Below are positions 29,488-37,929 of a stretch of DNA of 64,000 nucleotides, piece by piece. Positions within the stretch are counted from its first letter, which is position 1. Each line of letters starts with the position of its first letter. This DNA comes from Fusobacterium varium (lineage in GTDB: Bacteria; Fusobacteriota; Fusobacteriia; Fusobacteriales; Fusobacteriaceae). The translations under genes were made by a program, and so were the position numbers. The notes beneath the pieces were generated by a model. The model was not told the DNA's origin, did no database searches, and saw nothing but the letters and a program-made list of their open reading frames with translations. The stretch spans positions 558,001-622,000 of the forward strand of contig AP017968.1 in the NCBI GenBank assembly GCA_002356455.1, read 5' to 3'.

Positions 29488-30966
29488 CTAAGCTACTTTT
29501 AATGAGTGAAGTGTTGTTCCTAAGCGATTATTTATATTTCTGCTTAGATATCTGTTGAAGTTGTAAGCGATACAAAACAAACATATTTCTCTTAAAACAC
29601 TTTTTTTACTTCGAACTTTTAATTTTCGCAATTTCATATCTTCTTTCAAAACTGCAAAAGCACCTTCTACTTGAATACTTCTGTTCATTCTTAATTGTTT
29701 TCCATAATTGCTTGATACATTCTCTTTTGATTTATTTGATAAAATTCTAAATCTCGCATTGTACTTAATTTTTTTGTTAGTTTCAGGATTCCAAAAATAT
29801 TGAACTGTATTATTTTTGTTAGAGTATAGAAATTCTAATTCTAATCCATCTTTTCTAAATAGCTTATTTTCAGAATTATTATATATTAAATTTTCTACTC
29901 TGTTTAAATCATTTTTAAACTTTCTGATTTTAGATTTTTCAAAATATATTGGTTTTATGTATGAAGTATAGTCCATTTTTTCCAAATATTCATAATTTGA
30001 AATACTTTCATATCCTGCATCAGCTACAATATTTTTAATTTCTAAATTTTGAGATGAAATTTTCTCTAAAAATGGAATCAAAGTTTTAGAATCAGAAGGG
30101 TTAGAAAAAATTTCATATGAAGAAATATATTCACTAATCACTCCTATTTGTAGATTATATCCAGGTTTTAATTGACCATTTCTCATATGGTCATCTTTCA
30201 TTCTCATAAAAGTAGCATCTATATCAGTTTTTGAATAGCTATTTCTACCATTAAGATTTTTAAAATGATTAGAATATTTTTGATACTTTTCTAAGTATTC
30301 TGCGCATAATTCTAAATACTTTTGCTCTTTAGATTTTCTCTTTCCTCTACCTTTGACTATTTGAAAATTCAAATTAGAAAGATATGAATATATTTCAAGG
30401 AAGTTGTCATATTGTAAGTTGAAATCATCATTAAAATTTGAAATTAATTCAAGAATTTTTTCATCTAATCTAGTTCTATATTTCTCAATAGATTTTTTCC
30501 AAACAAATGTATATTTATTAGCATATGCTTCAATTTTAGTGCCATCAATATATATTGTTTCAGTGGAAATATTTTCCATTTCAAAAATTTTTTCAACGAA
30601 TTGTTCAAATAGATCTGGAAGAATATCTTCAGTTTTTACTAAGAATCTAGAAATAGTAGAGTGATCAGGAATTTTAGAATCTTGTAAAAGAAACCTAAAT
30701 TTAATATTTTCATGGCAAGCCATTTCTATATCTCTAGTAGAAGTTAAATTGCGCGAATAGGCATAAACAATGATAGAAAACATTCTGATAGGATGTACCT
30801 TTGTTTTGTAAGAAAATACTTGCATTAAACTACTAAAATCTAATCCCTCCAATATTGAGCTAAGTTTTCTTACAGGATCATTATCAGAAATTTCATATTG
30901 TAAAAAGTTAAAAAGTTTAGGTTGATTTAATTGAAAAAAAATGTTATTATTAGTTGGTTTTTGCAT
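29488..30966 (-). CDS. IS1182-family transposase (DDE type)
   Basis: 492 residues, full length. The N-terminal DUF772-like domain includes 'HPIRMFSIIVYAYSRNL' and 'DHSTISRF'. The catalytic core shows the DDE order: Asp141 in 'TIYIDGTKIEAYANK', a second Asp in 'NIVADAGYES', and a Glu in 'IQVEGAFAVLKEDM'. A C-terminal 'IAYNFNRYLSRN' follows. No frameshift or stop is seen, so the element may be mobile. The region before the ATG lacks a good ribosome binding site, as is common for transposases. Confidence 0.93.
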   Translation of the reverse strand: MQKPTNNNIFFQLNQPKLFNFLQYEISDNDPVRKLSSILEGLDFSSLMQVFSYKTKVHPIRMFSIIVYAYSRNLTSTRDIEMACHENIKFRFLLQDSKIPDHSTISRFLVKTEDILPDLFEQFVEKIFEMENISTETIYIDGTKIEAYANKYTFVWKKSIEKYRTRLDEKILELISNFNDDFNLQYDNFLEIYSYLSNLNFQIVKGRGKRKSKEQKYLELCAEYLEKYQKYSNHFKNLNGRNSYSKTDIDATFMRMKDDHMRNGQLKPGYNLQIGVISEYISSYEIFSNPSDSKTLIPFLEKISSQNLEIKNIVADAGYESISNYEYLEKMDYTSYIKPIYFEKSKIRKFKNDLNRVENLIYNNSENKLFRKDGLELEFLYSNKNNTVQYFWNPETNKKIKYNARFRILSNKSKENVSSNYGKQLRMNRSIQVEGAFAVLKEDMKLRKLKVRSKKSVLREICLFCIAYNFNRYLSRNINNRLGTTLHSLKVA

Positions 30967-31178: not shown

Positions 31179-32954
31179 ATGAGTTTAAATAGAAGAGATA
31201 TGAAACTTTTAGAAGAGATAAATAATAATGTTTCCCCCATAAGTTCTCTGGCTGAAAAATATAATGTTAGTGAAAGAAATATTAGATATAGCATAGATAA
31301 TATAAATTTTTATTTAAAAAAAATGGGATTATCAGAGATAATAATAAAAAAGGGTAATCTTGAGTTTTCAATAAGTGATAAAGAACTTGATAGTTTTATT
31401 GAAACTTTAAATATGAATATGTATGTTTTTTCTCAGGAGGAAAGAGAAGAGTATATTCTTATAAACTATCTTTTTAGAGAAAATGTAAAAATTTCAGAAA
31501 TGGAAGATGACTTAAAAGTAAGCAGAACTACTATAAAGAAAGATTTAAAAGATTTAGAGAAATATCTTATGGAATTTGAACTTTTTTTTTATCGTGATGA
31601 AAACAGAATGTATATAACTGGAAAAGAAAAAAAATTGAGACATTTAAAGTTATTAAAAATGCTTGATTATATAGAAATAAAGAATAAAAATATAATTTAT
31701 ATAAAGAAAAAGTATTTTAGTGAAAAAGAAGAACAAAAAATAATTGCTGAATACATAAAGGAATATGATATAAAAAAAATAATAGATATAATTGATCAAA
31801 TTGAAGAAAAACTTAATGCCCATTTTACAGGAGAGTTTAAAAATATAATGGGAATATATTTTATAGCCACATTCGAAAGAATAAAAAATGGTTATATAAT
31901 CATTCAAAAAAATAATAGTGATTTTTTGAGAAAACTTGAAGAATATAGAAAAATAAAGGATATTTTGAAAAAAGTAATAGATGAAACTCAAGAATATGAG
32001 ATACTCCATCTTACTGAATATTTTTTAAGTGGATATTATAATGATACTTTTTCTGAAAATATTCTCATATTAGAAAGGTTTATTTCTAAAATATTAGAAA
32101 ATATGGATATAGAAATGGAAACTCATTTACTAAAAGATAGAGAATTAGTAGAAAAACTTATGAAATATCTACTTCCAGCTATTTATAGGATAAAGAATAA
32201 TTTCTATTTAAATAAAAATCTTGATTTTACTGAAATAAATTTAGAGTTATTCAATAAAGTAAAAGAAATAATAGATAAAAATAATCATTATCTTAAAGAG
32301 CCTTTAAGAGATGAAGAGATATTTTATGTTTCAAAATATATCGAGGAATACATAGAACAGAAAAAAAATAAAAAAATTTCTTTGAAAGAATTACTGAAAC
32401 TAGTGCAGCAAAATGCAAGGGATGTAGATAGTGAACTTTTAGCAGAAGATATAAAAGAAAAGTTTGGAATGTTTATAGATGATGACAGAGAAAAGGAAAC
32501 TGATTATGGATTAATAAGATTATTAGGAAAAAATCGTATATTTATTTCAGAGAAAAGAATAAATTTTGGAAATGCTTTAGAAATTGGATTGAATATTCTT
32601 TTAAAAGAAAAATGTATAAAAGAAAAAAGTATATATAATTTAAAGGATATGGTAGAAAAATTTGGAAGATATCTTTTTATAGATAAAAGAATATTATTTT
32701 GTTATGACAAAGAAAAAGAAAATTGTATAAAACCTGGAATAACTCTTATTGTTTCAAAAGAAGGAATAAAAGTGGATGAGGAAGAAGATGCTGATGTCCT
32801 GTTTCTTTTGGCTGCTCGAAATAAGATAGAGCATTTAAAAGTTATATCTGAGCTTATAAGATTGATAGAAAAGAAAAATTTTCTTAATGAAATAATTGAA
32901 TTAAAAAAATCTGAAGATATAAAAAATAAAATAAAGAACCTTTTAAAAGAATAG
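31179..32954 (+). CDS. PRD-domain regulator (MtlR/BglG-like) lacking phospho-histidines
   Basis: 591 residues. Two helix-turn-helix regions lie at ~10-45 and ~88-120, then PRD1 (~200-290), PRD2 (~305-400) and a C-terminal EIIA-like domain (~445-560). There is no EIIB domain. In such regulators PTS phosphorylation of PRD and EIIA histidines sets activity. By eye alignment those positions read Tyr here: Y227 and Y281 in PRD1, Y330 and Y387 in PRD2, and Y509 in 'ILFCYDKEK', where EIIA normally has 'ALPH'. The regulator may thus be blind to the PTS. The target is unknown. malX-malY lies 2.2 kb downstream. GGAGGG precedes the ATG. Confidence 0.82.
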   Translation: MSLNRRDMKLLEEINNNVSPISSLAEKYNVSERNIRYSIDNINFYLKKMGLSEIIIKKGNLEFSISDKELDSFIETLNMNMYVFSQEEREEYILINYLFRENVKISEMEDDLKVSRTTIKKDLKDLEKYLMEFELFFYRDENRMYITGKEKKLRHLKLLKMLDYIEIKNKNIIYIKKKYFSEKEEQKIIAEYIKEYDIKKIIDIIDQIEEKLNAHFTGEFKNIMGIYFIATFERIKNGYIIIQKNNSDFLRKLEEYRKIKDILKKVIDETQEYEILHLTEYFLSGYYNDTFSENILILERFISKILENMDIEMETHLLKDRELVEKLMKYLLPAIYRIKNNFYLNKNLDFTEINLELFNKVKEIIDKNNHYLKEPLRDEEIFYVSKYIEEYIEQKKNKKISLKELLKLVQQNARDVDSELLAEDIKEKFGMFIDDDREKETDYGLIRLLGKNRIFISEKRINFGNALEIGLNILLKEKCIKEKSIYNLKDMVEKFGRYLFIDKRILFCYDKEKENCIKPGITLIVSKEGIKVDEEEDADVLFLLAARNKIEHLKVISELIRLIEKKNFLNEIIELKKSEDIKNKIKNLLKE

Positions 32955-33002: not shown

Positions 33003-33032
33003 TTGGACTTTTATTAGATTGTTTGTTATAAT
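33003..33032 (+). promoter_or_regulatory. Promoter of the diguanylate cyclase gene
   Basis: TTGGAC (33003-33008), 18-bp spacer, TATAAT (33027-33032). An ATG at 33019 lies inside this promoter and so cannot be the translation start. Confidence 0.65.
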
Positions 33033-33090
33033 AAATAGTTATAAGAGGCAAATATTTTTAGGGATGATATTAAAAGGGGGAGTAAATATT

Positions 33091-34986
33091 TTGAAAAACA
33101 ATAAACTGTTTAAAACTAATATATTGGTCAGTCTTATTTTAGTAGTTGGTTTTGTACTTACAGCAATGTTTAGTTATCAAGCCAATTATAAAGCATCTCT
33201 AAATAACATAGAAGAGGTTACTTCCCTTACAGCAGAAGGAATTTATTATCAATTAACAACTATGTTTACAAAGCCAGTAAATATATCCTTGACTATGGCA
33301 CATGACAGTTTATTAGTTGAGCATCTAAAAAATGAAAAGGAATATTCAAAAAATAAAGAGTATATTCAAGCAACTAAGAAATATTTAGAAACTTATCAAA
33401 AAAAATATGGATTTGATTCAGTATTTTTAGCTTCTGCAACTACAAAACATTATTATAACTTTAATGGATTAGATCGTTTATTAAATGAAAATGATTCTGA
33501 AAATACATGGTTTTTTAATCTTTTGAATAGTAAGGAGAATTATTCTTTAAACATAGATAATGATGAAGTAAAAGGAGCAAACAACGCAATTACAATATTT
33601 GTTAATTGTAAAGTAAAAGATCAAAATGAAAAAATATTAGGAATTGTTGGAGTTGGAGTTCGTATAGAGAATTTAAAAGAACTTCTGATAAGTTATGAAA
33701 AGAAGTTTAATTTAGAAACTTGTTTGATTGATGAAAATGGAATTATTGAAATATCTAATAATTATACAGGATATGAAGAGAAAAATTGGTTTGAAATTTA
33801 TAATCAAAATAATATAAAAGAAAAAATATTATCTCATAAAGAAGATTCAGCAAATTTGGAAATGTGGGCATCTTCAGATTTGAGTGTTAATGAAAAAAAG
33901 TATATAGTGACACGATATATTCCAGAGCTATCTTGGTATCTCATTGTTAAACAAGATACAGCACAACTTATATCAGAGATGAAACAAAATCTTTTTCAAA
34001 TATGTCTTATAATTATAGCTATTGTATTGACAGTACTTTTTGTAATTACTGCTGTAATCAGAAATTTTAATAAGCAGATTACAAAATTGGTGGAAGAAAG
34101 AGAAACTATTTTTAGAAAATCAACAGAGCAGCTATATGATAAGATAAATGAATTAAATATTACTAAAAATACATATGTTGGAAAACATACAGTACATTAT
34201 TTTGAAACTATTGGAGCTAAAGGGCTCCCATTTGATCAAGGTTTACGTGTGATTGCAAATAAACAGATAAAAGAGGAATATAGAGAAGGATATATAAATA
34301 TTTTTTCACCAGAAAATGTAATTAAAGAATATAAAAAAGGCAATAAATCTTTAAGATATGAATTTATGATAACAGAAGATGGAATAAATTATTCTTGGAT
34401 GAGAGTTGATGCTTATATTTTTTATTCTCCAGAAGATAGCTCAATCCATATGTTTGCATATAGAAAAAATATTGATGAGGAAAAGAAAAAAGAACAAAAG
34501 GCTGAAATAGATGAAATGACTGGCTTTTATAATAAAAAAGCTACAGAAAGAATGATTGAAAAAATGCTGTTAGAATTACCAAGTCAAAAATATGCTTTTT
34601 TTATTTTTGATATTGATAATTTTAAACAGGCGAATGATAATTTTGGGCATTTATTTGGAGACTTGTGTATTAAAGAATTTACTCGGATAATTAAAGAAAG
34701 TTTTAAAGAAAATAACACTATACTTGGACGAATTGGAGGAGATGAATTTGTTGTATTTACTCCAGTTTTAAATATAGAATGGGTGAATAGAAAAGCTGGA
34801 GAGGTTTCTAAAGCTTTAAACATTGTATGTGAAAATAATTTATCCAGTTGGAAAATGACAGGAAGTATTGGAATTGCTGTTACTCCAAAAGATGGAAAAA
34901 CATTTGAAGACATTTATAAAAATGCAGATATAGCATTATATCAAACAAAAGAAAAAGGAAAAAATGGATATACAATTCATAAATAA
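33091..34986 (+). CDS. Membrane diguanylate cyclase with extracytoplasmic sensor
   Basis: Makes cyclic di-GMP from two GTP. Membrane helix 1 (~10-30), an extracytoplasmic dCache-like sensor (~35-300) with 'WFFNLLNSKENYSLNIDND', helix 2 (~305-330), a PAS-like region, then a GGDEF domain (~475-630). The active site reads GGDEF at 549-553 and 'FDIDNFKQANDNFGH' is intact. The RxxD inhibitory site expected a few residues before GGDEF is absent ('NNTILGRI'). The start is TTG 33091, with AAGGGGGAG before it. Upstream ATGs lie in the promoter or lack a binding site. Confidence 0.87.
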   Translation: MKNNKLFKTNILVSLILVVGFVLTAMFSYQANYKASLNNIEEVTSLTAEGIYYQLTTMFTKPVNISLTMAHDSLLVEHLKNEKEYSKNKEYIQATKKYLETYQKKYGFDSVFLASATTKHYYNFNGLDRLLNENDSENTWFFNLLNSKENYSLNIDNDEVKGANNAITIFVNCKVKDQNEKILGIVGVGVRIENLKELLISYEKKFNLETCLIDENGIIEISNNYTGYEEKNWFEIYNQNNIKEKILSHKEDSANLEMWASSDLSVNEKKYIVTRYIPELSWYLIVKQDTAQLISEMKQNLFQICLIIIAIVLTVLFVITAVIRNFNKQITKLVEERETIFRKSTEQLYDKINELNITKNTYVGKHTVHYFETIGAKGLPFDQGLRVIANKQIKEEYREGYINIFSPENVIKEYKKGNKSLRYEFMITEDGINYSWMRVDAYIFYSPEDSSIHMFAYRKNIDEEKKKEQKAEIDEMTGFYNKKATERMIEKMLLELPSQKYAFFIFDIDNFKQANDNFGHLFGDLCIKEFTRIIKESFKENNTILGRIGGDEFVVFTPVLNIEWVNRKAGEVSKALNIVCENNLSSWKMTGSIGIAVTPKDGKTFEDIYKNADIALYQTKEKGKNGYTIHK

Positions 34987-35067: not shown

Positions 35068-35194
35068 ATTTATAGCAGGTTTTTTATACTAAAACTTTTT
35101 TTCAAAAAAATATGAAAAAGTATGCATATTAACTTTAATATTTTCTTGATATATAATAACTTTAGAATAAAATAAAAATATTTCGGAGGAAAAG

Positions 35195-36730
35195 ATGAAT
35201 AAAAAAGTTAGTTTTTGGGAATTTTTTCAAGGATTAGGGAAAACGTTTATGCTGCCAGTGTCACTATTAGCAGCTTGTGGAATTATGCTTGGAATAGGAA
35301 GTTCATTTGCAAGTTCAGTAACTGCAGAAATACTTCCATTTTTAAAGAATCCTGTTTTAAAAATATTCTTTGAATTTATGGCAACAATAGGATCATTTGC
35401 ATTTTCAAATCTACCAGTTATGTTTGCAATGGCTATACCTTTAGGACTTGCAAGACAAGATAAAGGAGTAGCAGCATTTTCTGGATATGTTGGTTTTGCT
35501 ATGTCAAGTTTATCAGTTAATTTCTTTTTAAAAGCTACAGGAACTCTAGCTACGCCTGAAAATATGAAGGCAGCAGGACAATCTATGGTTCTTGGTATCC
35601 AAAGTATTGATATTGGAGTTCTTGGTGGAGTTTTAATTGGTATAATTGTTTATAAGATACATGACAGATACTGCGAAATTAAACTTCCTGATGCACTTGC
35701 ATTCTTTGGTGGAGCAAGATTTGTACCTATTGCAACAGCTGTAATAGTTGGAGTAGTAAGTTTGTTAATCCCATTTATCTGGCCTTTCTTCAATAATATG
35801 ATTATGGGTGTTGGGAAGATGATAGGGAAAGCAGGAGCATTTGGACCATTTTTGTTTGGAGCTGGAGAAGGATTATTAAGACCATTCGGACTGCATCATA
35901 TATTGGTTGCTATGATAAGATTTACACCAGCTGGAGGAGAAGCAATAGTAAATGGGGAAACGGTTTCGGGAGCTCTTACAATATTTTATAAACAATTTGC
36001 TGATGGAATTCTTGATCCTAATGTGACAAAATTTCTTTCTCAAGGAAAAATGCCATCATATATGTTTGGACTTCCAGCAATAGCTTTAGCAATATATAAT
36101 ACTGCAAGACCTGAAAATAGAAAAAAAATAAAAGGACTTCTTGCATCTGGACTTGTAGCTTGTGTAATTGGTGGAATAACAGAACCATTAGAATTTATAT
36201 TTCTTTTCTTATCACCAGTTTTATATATATTCCATTGTATCATGGTTGGACTTGGATTTATGATGATGGGAATATTAAAAGTGACTATTGGAAATACTGA
36301 TGGAAACCTTATAGATTTTATAGTATTTGGAGTGTTACAAGGAACAAGAACAAAATGGTACTTAGTTCTTTTAGTAGGGGCTGTTTGGTTTGCAGTTTAT
36401 TACACAGTATTTAAGTATGCAATATTGAAATTTAATTTAAAAACTCCAGGAAGAGAAGTGATTACTGAAGGGGATAATGTAAAATTAGGTGGATATGATG
36501 AAGAAAGAATGCTGCAGGCTTTAGGAGGAAAGGATAATATTGTTTCTCTAGATAACTGTATAACTAGACTTAGAATGGTTGTGAAAGATATGTCTATTGT
36601 TGACTCAGATGAAATAAAAGCAACTGGAGCAATAGCAGTAGTAAAATTGGATGATACAAATCTTCAAGTTGTAATAGGACCTCAAGTTCATGTTGTAAAA
36701 AATAAATTAGAAAAATTAATAAAGAAATAA
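35195..36730 (+). CDS. malX: PTS EIICB, maltose/glucose type
   Basis: 511 residues. The EIIC membrane part spans ~1-420, with 'MLPVSLLAACGIMLGIG', 'GLLRPFGLHHILVAM' and the sugar-site 'GGITEPLEFIFLF'. The EIIB domain spans ~435-511, with phospho-cysteine near C455 in 'SLDNCITRLRM'. It is closest to the MalX/PtsG group of alpha-glucoside and glucose transporters. EIIA must come from elsewhere. CGGAGG precedes the ATG. A candidate TTGATA/TAAAAT promoter with 16-bp spacing lies at 35146-35173. malY follows after 17 bases, as in the E. coli malXY operon. Confidence 0.88.
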   Translation: MNKKVSFWEFFQGLGKTFMLPVSLLAACGIMLGIGSSFASSVTAEILPFLKNPVLKIFFEFMATIGSFAFSNLPVMFAMAIPLGLARQDKGVAAFSGYVGFAMSSLSVNFFLKATGTLATPENMKAAGQSMVLGIQSIDIGVLGGVLIGIIVYKIHDRYCEIKLPDALAFFGGARFVPIATAVIVGVVSLLIPFIWPFFNNMIMGVGKMIGKAGAFGPFLFGAGEGLLRPFGLHHILVAMIRFTPAGGEAIVNGETVSGALTIFYKQFADGILDPNVTKFLSQGKMPSYMFGLPAIALAIYNTARPENRKKIKGLLASGLVACVIGGITEPLEFIFLFLSPVLYIFHCIMVGLGFMMMGILKVTIGNTDGNLIDFIVFGVLQGTRTKWYLVLLVGAVWFAVYYTVFKYAILKFNLKTPGREVITEGDNVKLGGYDEERMLQALGGKDNIVSLDNCITRLRMVVKDMSIVDSDEIKATGAIAVVKLDDTNLQVVIGPQVHVVKNKLEKLIKK

Positions 36731-36747
36731 TTAAAATGGTGAGAAGG

Positions 36748-37929
36748 ATGAAATTTGATGAAGTAAAGGATAGAAGAGGTACTTACTGTACTCAATGGGA
36801 TTATGTAAAAGATAGGTTCGGAAAGGATGATCTTCTTCCTTTCACTATATCAGACATGGATTTAGAATCTCCAAAAGAAATAGTAGAGGCTCTTATAAAA
36901 AGAATAAATCATAAAATATTTGGATATAGCAGATGGAATCATGATGACTTTAAAAATTCTATTGAGGGATGGTATAACAGAAGATTCGATTTTCAAATAA
37001 ATAAAGAATGGATAGTATATAGTCCAAGTGTAATTTATGCAATATCAAAGTTTATTGAAATGAAATCAAAAAAAGGAGATGGTATACTAATCCATACTCC
37101 AGGATATGATGGATTTTTTAAAGTAATAGTAGACAATGATAGAAAATTGTTAACTTCACCATTAAAAAAAGTTAAAGAGAGTTATGAAATAGATTTTGAT
37201 GACTTTGAATTAAAGTGTAAAAAAGCAAAAATATTTCTTTTGTGCAGTCCTCATAATCCTACTGGAAGAGTATGGACTGAAAAAGAATTAGAAAAAATGA
37301 TAAAAATATGTAAAAAATATAATGTATTTATAATTTCAGACGAAATACATATGGATATAATTTATAGAGGGAAACATCATCCTGTTTTATCACAAAGTGG
37401 TGATTATATAGAAAATATAGTTTTATGTACATCAGCTTCAAAGACTTTTAATATTCCAGCACTATGTGGTTCATATCTTTTTGTCACAAATCAAAAAGAT
37501 AGGGATGAATTTTTGAGAATATTAAAGAATAGAGATGCACTTTCATCACCTTCAATACTTGCTGTAATAGCAACAATCACAGCTTATAATAAATGTGAGT
37601 ATTGGGTAAATGAGTTAGTAAAATATACAGAAAGCAATATAAAATATGTGAAAGAATATTTAGAAAAAAATATTCCAGTTCTAAAATGTGAAGTTCCACA
37701 AGGCTCATATTTCGCATGGATAGATTTTTCAAAATTGGGTATTTCCAATGAGGAATTCCAGAGGAATCTTATTGATATTGGGGGAGTAGCAATAATGCCG
37801 GGACTGACTTACGGAGAAGAGGGAAGATACTTCTTAAGGCTTAATGTAGGATGCTCTATTAAAAAAGTAGAAGGTGGGTTACAGAGAATAGAAAAGGCAG
37901 TAAATCACATACTGAGTATAAAAAAATAA
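36748..37929 (+). CDS. malY: MalY/PatB-type aminotransferase (cystathionine beta-lyase)
   Basis: A PLP-dependent fold-type I enzyme of about 393 residues. It has the MalY start 'MKFDEVKDRRGTYCTQWD', 'LCSPHNPTGRVW', 'ISDEIHMDII' (Asp that binds PLP), the PLP-lysine region 'CTSASKTFNIPAL', and an Arg near the end ('FLRLNVGC'). The PatB/MalY group has C-S lyase activity, and in E. coli MalY also inhibits MalT. An in-frame ATG at 36736 exists, but 36748 follows GGTGAGAAGG and gives the usual N-terminus. Next to malX, this pair mirrors E. coli malXY. No malI-like repressor is present. Confidence 0.9.
   Translation: MKFDEVKDRRGTYCTQWDYVKDRFGKDDLLPFTISDMDLESPKEIVEALIKRINHKIFGYSRWNHDDFKNSIEGWYNRRFDFQINKEWIVYSPSVIYAISKFIEMKSKKGDGILIHTPGYDGFFKVIVDNDRKLLTSPLKKVKESYEIDFDDFELKCKKAKIFLLCSPHNPTGRVWTEKELEKMIKICKKYNVFIISDEIHMDIIYRGKHHPVLSQSGDYIENIVLCTSASKTFNIPALCGSYLFVTNQKDRDEFLRILKNRDALSSPSILAVIATITAYNKCEYWVNELVKYTESNIKYVKEYLEKNIPVLKCEVPQGSYFAWIDFSKLGISNEEFQRNLIDIGGVAIMPGLTYGEEGRYFLRLNVGCSIKKVEGGLQRIEKAVNHILSIKK

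Follow-up and report, generated by a model that had tools for sequence, protein, structure and literature searches.

In Escherichia coli, malXY is under the control of MalI, a LacI-type repressor. MtlR of Bacillus subtilis is stimulated by phosphorylation of PRD2 and by the unphosphorylated state of its EIIA- and EIIB-like domains, and its palindrome lies upstream of the -35 box (PMC3217849). In the MtlR H342D variant, glucose repression was much, and significantly, reduced (PMC3217849). The PRDs of MafR and AcpA have no His in common with MtlR and have been described as possibly vestigial; from the review on these proteins, PTS-independent PRD proteins have thus already been proposed (PMC8560693).

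Here we describe P0001, a PRD regulator of Fusobacterium varium Fv113-g1, encoded within a 64,000-nucleotide stretch of DNA (the window). Its gene adjoins malX-malY, as does that of MalI, and the two protein families are unrelated. P0001 is like Bacillus MtlR in its HTH_11 and Mga HTHs, two PRDs and C-terminal EIIA, in the candidate palindrome upstream of a -35 box and in its linkage to PTS genes. It differs in having no phospho-His in the PRDs or in EIIA and neither the domain nor the Cys of EIIB, and in the family of its PTS partner (MalX). Unlike the BglG/LicT antiterminators, it is devoid of a CAT RNA-binding domain. It shares its fold with the PRD virulence regulators (AtxA, MgaSpn and the N-terminal part of AcpB), but in MafR, AcpA, AtxA and Mga the retained C-terminal domain is EIIB-like and EIIA is never present, the opposite of P0001, and these proteins are linked to virulence genes of Firmicutes, whereas P0001 is linked to a malXY operon. 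The closest relatives found were MtlR-type paralogues of the same genomes (e.g., G000:C1:991846, 262088 and 1868050), which have an identical domain order and, in contrast to P0001, retain the PRD2 His, EIIB Cys and EIIA His. P0001 is MtlR-type by descent and fold, and is without the phospho-sites that define the family. A literature search for a PRD regulator of malX in Fusobacterium returned nothing on point; as far as it shows, three findings reported here are new: a clade dedicated to malXY, the stepwise loss of domains within it and its candidate operator.

Results

Domains and fold of P0001

The ORF of P0001 proved genuine. Pfam matches above cut-off were HTH_11, Mga, two PRD stretches and PTS_EIIA_2; the two PF00874 stretches scored 30.8 bits against a cut-off of 23, and both copies were aligned by profile. 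The gene comprises the following features.

31179..32954, + strand: P0001, PRD regulator, 591 aa, MtlR-type by descent (ORF, Pfam)
31179..31643, + strand: two N-terminal DNA-binding HTHs, HTH_11 and Mga (Pfam; AlphaFold model; AtxA/Mga/AcpB matches)
31764..32066, + strand: PRD1, aa 196-296 (Pfam, profile alignment, AlphaFold model)
32088..32345, + strand: PRD2, aa 304-389 (Pfam)
32361..32372, + strand: junction without the EIIB domain (~100 aa, with its Cys in 16/16 paralogues; alignment with paralogues)
32520..32939, + strand: EIIA-like domain, aa 448-587, dN/dS 0.07-0.11 (Pfam, selection analysis, structure matches)

The first-pass annotation had reported that the EIIB domain of MtlR-type proteins is missing. 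Pfam indeed gave no EIIB match in P0001, and the domain is absent from all 21 full orthologues described below. Nor did P0001 give a Pfam match to CAT_RBD, which was found in a control protein (L152).

The AlphaFold model of P0001 (mean pLDDT 87, pTM 0.69) had AtxA, MgaSpn and 3sqn as its top full-length Foldseek matches. In the structure search, the N-terminal part of AcpB also matched the HTH-PRD part, and the C-terminus matched EIIA structures. VIA-align returned mostly EIIA matches together with helical look-alikes such as band 3, which were not counted as evidence, and a PDB sequence search with the orthologue profile gave no matches. The four PRD sites lie in predicted helices 218-236, 272-283, 321-339 and 378-396, as they should in PRDs.

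Loss of phospho-acceptor sites in a clade of orthologues

The search for orthologues covered 61 genomes of the family and 98 of the phylum. Early scans of genome contigs had given no match, then only F. mortiferum and one weak match; 22 orthologous loci were found by the search, all in Fusobacteriaceae, and a 23rd (in G048) was found via its operator. On a tree of the HTH-PRD part, the 21 full orthologues formed a single clade relative to the paralogues (support 100/100). The latter were represented by 16 Fusobacteriaceae MtlR-type proteins that keep EIIB, EIIA and the active residues. The codons compared, placed by alignment, were as follows.

31857..31859, + strand: Y227, PRD1 site 1; Tyr/Phe in orthologues, Tyr in 15/16 His-bearing paralogues
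32019..32021, + strand: Y281, PRD1 site 2; Tyr in 21/21 orthologues, Tyr/Leu/Phe in paralogues
32166..32168, + strand: Y330, PRD2 site 1; Tyr in 21/21 orthologues, His in 16/16 paralogues, a true loss
32337..32339, + strand: Y387, PRD2 site 2; Tyr in 3/21 and His in 0/21 orthologues, His in 13/16 paralogues, a true loss
32703..32705, + strand: Y509, position of the EIIA active-site His
32007..32009, + strand: H277, clade-specific invariant His
31641..31643: H155, clade-specific invariant His

Tyr had been read at all five classical phospho-His sites of P0001 (Y227, Y281, Y330, Y387 and Y509), and the alignments upheld this register. The PRD2 His columns of the paralogues fall on the phospho-His of LicT ('vnhikp' on 'tdhinf'/'vthlkf', and 'itihf' on 'ialhi'/'ltihi'; the LicT entry 1h99 carries D instead of the two PRD2 His). 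Profile alignment of PRD1 with PRD2 equates Y227 with Y330 and Y281 with Y387, and sets the Tyr/Phe of paralogue PRD1 on the PRD2 His. Y509 aligned to the EIIA His of 3oxp. The LicT, PRD1/PRD2 and EIIA alignments therefore confirmed the register, and the first two ruled out misalignment or chance as the source of the Tyr sites.

Conservation of the Tyr pattern was partial. Y281 and Y330 are invariant and site 509 is Tyr in 4/4 orthologues that keep this part of the protein (His in 16/16 paralogues; no EIIA residue in the other 17 of 21 orthologues), but site 227 varies between Tyr and Phe, and site 387 holds E, L, K, T, V, I or C where it is not Tyr. Site 281 of the 16 His-bearing paralogues is Tyr in 8, Leu in 5 and Phe in 3. 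Judged from these alignments, Tyr at 227 and 281 is the family norm and not special to the P0001 clade. The earlier argument that five Tyr out of five are unlikely by chance hence does not hold as a statistic of independent replacement, two of the sites being Tyr-rich across the family; what survives of it is the His loss at the other three sites, which, on the same alignments and like that of EIIB, is genuine and clade-wide. Orthologues with His at these sites had been named in the first-pass annotation as a refuting observation; His, looked for at the five sites in the 21 orthologues, was found in none. The EIIB Cys (16/16 paralogues) and a further PRD1 His (14/16 paralogues) were likewise present in 0 orthologues. 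All five Tyr codons of P0001 are TAT, a single C-to-T transition from the His codon CAT; the F. varium Fv113-g1 genome is 29% GC (PMC5720691). Glu occupies PRD2 site 2 in eight orthologues (L088-L095), where it is possibly a natural phospho-mimic.

Two His of P0001, H277 and H155, are shared by all orthologues (21/21) and by no paralogue (0/16). In the AlphaFold model, H277 lies one helical turn before Y281, both within one predicted helix of PRD1; H155 is near the HTH, outside the PRDs. These clade-specific residues could be new phospho-acceptors.

The dN/dS ratio was 0.09-0.11 overall and about 0.1 across all domains, EIIA included, which places the gene, its EIIA remnant included, under purifying selection. 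HTH residues are invariant among the orthologues. Short forms without EIIA require three changes on the tree, which puts the further losses of EIIA at about three. The frame of the G010 copy (L018) is disrupted in the linker-PRD1 region by three deletions of one base each, which may be assembly errors, and the G003 copy has an in-frame stop; the 20 remaining orthologues are open. The EIIA-bearing regulator of a genome of another genus (L084 in G034) is nearest to the F. varium-group form and not to the short form of its own genus, possibly as a result of transfer between genera.

A candidate operator at the malX promoter

The regulator gene and malX-malY are set in the following neighbourhood.

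29488-30966, - strand: DDE transposase (DUF772/DDE_Tnp_1), inserted next to the regulator, with a SIMPL-domain-like gene on its other side
33019-34986, + strand: dCache-GGDEF diguanylate cyclase gene, between the regulator and malX
35100..35117, + strand: candidate operator TTTCAAAAAAATATGAAA, 18-bp palindrome upstream of malX
35129..35134, + strand: -35 box TTAACT of the malX promoter, 11 bp past the palindrome
35152..35157, + strand: -10 box TATAAT, spacer 17
35195..36730, + strand: malX, maltose/glucose-type PTS EIIBC (TIGR02004, 786 bits)
36736..37929, + strand: malY/PatB-family C-S lyase (TIGR04350)

All 23 regulator loci are linked to malX-malY; whether the regulator lies upstream or downstream of them depends on the genus. 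The palindrome, TTTCA-N8-TGAAA, was seen in 23/23 malX promoters with the regulator, always 11 bp ahead of the -35 box, which a 17-bp spacer separates from the -10 box. Three copies, those of G052, G053 and G058, are degenerate, and a few more, L090 and L088 among them, deviate by one base in an arm. The search had assigned the regulator to 22 of 25 genomes with a full-score MalX, and the 23rd emerged after its operator was spotted. Four full-score MalX loci were seemingly without the regulator. Three of these were also without the palindrome (0/3), and the fourth, in G048, had it; the end of the G048 contig encodes the first 43 residues of the regulator, directly after malY. Palindrome and regulator are thus both present at 23 loci and both absent from 3, these loci being related by descent. 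Among the three malXY copies without the regulator, one (L153) is beside a GntR/UTRA gene and another (L152) beside a CAT-PRD antiterminator gene.

Pattern matching was the sole means of searching the genome for a wider regulon. With up to 2 mismatches, the palindrome gave 38 matches, against 38 for the reversed control. Since this count is no higher than the control, only the single exact match is credible, and a regulon beyond malX was rejected. Two malX-operator-like palindromes 78 bp apart were seen near a radical-SAM-like gene (L101, positions 1501 and 1579; G000:C1:2199731-2199826).

The transposase is missing from the same spot in G008, G009 and G010. The proximal promoter region of the regulator is retained. 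The dCache-GGDEF gene is present in G000 and G009 and absent from G008 and G010; its presence in only 2/4 of the closest genomes ruled out c-di-GMP from this neighbour as a general input. The PTS itself is present in F. varium, with two full-score enzyme I (EI) genes (G000:C1:1216835 and 467270).

Discussion

We propose that P0001 is probably an MtlR-derived activator of malXY that has been freed from PTS phospho-control. The first-pass annotation suggested that this regulator may have left PTS control, and this is well supported: none of the orthologues has His at the sites, EIIB is gone and EIIA is either gone or His-less. The clade of P0001 would consist of Fusobacteriaceae transcription activators that derive from MtlR and are dedicated to malXY; its ancestor would have lost EIIB together with all PTS phospho-acceptors. 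With the acceptor sites missing, HPr~P, EIIA~P and EIIB~P would no longer set P0001 activity. Conservation and linkage suggest that a P0001 dimer most likely binds TTTCA-N8-TGAAA, close by the -35 box of malX on its upstream side, and that bound P0001 would activate malXY. The PRDs would act as a fixed, effectively locked scaffold, and the EIIA-like domain of the F. varium group would be a constrained non-catalytic remnant. Any signal might come from an effector or from P0001's own expression level, which is the weakest step of the proposal. The orthologues resemble a naturally occurring counterpart of the decoupling seen with H342D in MtlR.

That Y330 and Y281 alone are invariant fits a structural role as well as signalling, and their strong conservation counts against an account of simple loss, which leaves it unexplained. 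A new input read by remodelled PRDs, either at a relocated acceptor (H277) or in an effector pocket around Y281, Y330 and H277, would replace the PTS phospho-relay; we regard this as unlikely. It also seems decidedly unlikely that PTS control was relocated and not lost, HPr~P now phosphorylating H277 or H155. Both residues are confined to the clade and invariant there, H277 shares its predicted helix with Y281, and some PRD His of PCVR proteins are phosphorylated in vitro although they are not spatially conserved (PMC8560693). On the other hand, EIIB and the EIIA His were lost too, so that input from the cognate transporter is gone, and H155 lies away from the PRDs. As to the idea that another signal is read through Tyr, by Tyr phosphorylation or otherwise, the invariance of Y330 and Y281 speaks for it, but Tyr is rare at site 387 and interchangeable with Phe at 227, His-using paralogues also carry Tyr at 227 and 281, every one of the Tyr codons can arise from a His codon by a single change and the genome is AT-rich, and no Tyr kinase was found among the translated neighbours in the window; functional Tyr sensors are accordingly very improbable in our judgement.

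Decay of the regulator gene, with Tyr reflecting relaxed selection, might be read from the G010 frameshifts, the G003 stop and the repeated loss of EIIA. We give it scarcely any credence: the dN/dS values contradict relaxed selection in every domain including EIIA, 20 orthologues are open with invariant HTH residues and a conserved candidate operator, and the G010 deletions could be artefacts of assembly. The candidate palindrome could also be the site of another regulator, or of both regulators, or act in repression. Its placement alone leaves the sign of regulation unfixed; however, it co-occurs with the regulator gene in both gene orders (23/23 against 0/3) and occupies an activator-like position, as in MtlR-type activators. 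We therefore consider it rather unlikely that the palindrome belongs to a different regulator and that P0001 is a repressor or acts elsewhere.

An activator released from PTS phospho-control would provide a natural, traceable series in which a PTS-controlled regulator sheds its controls one step at a time. The PRD2 His and EIIB would have gone first, and EIIA on some three further occasions, with the gene, the neighbouring genes and the candidate operator all persisting. In gut Fusobacteria, this activator would also define a candidate pair of regulator and operator for malXY. Should a new input prove to be read by the PRDs, P0001 would bring a new sensing chemistry to PRD proteins. The clade offers a test of whether PRDs work without phosphorylation, a question shared with MafR and AcpA.
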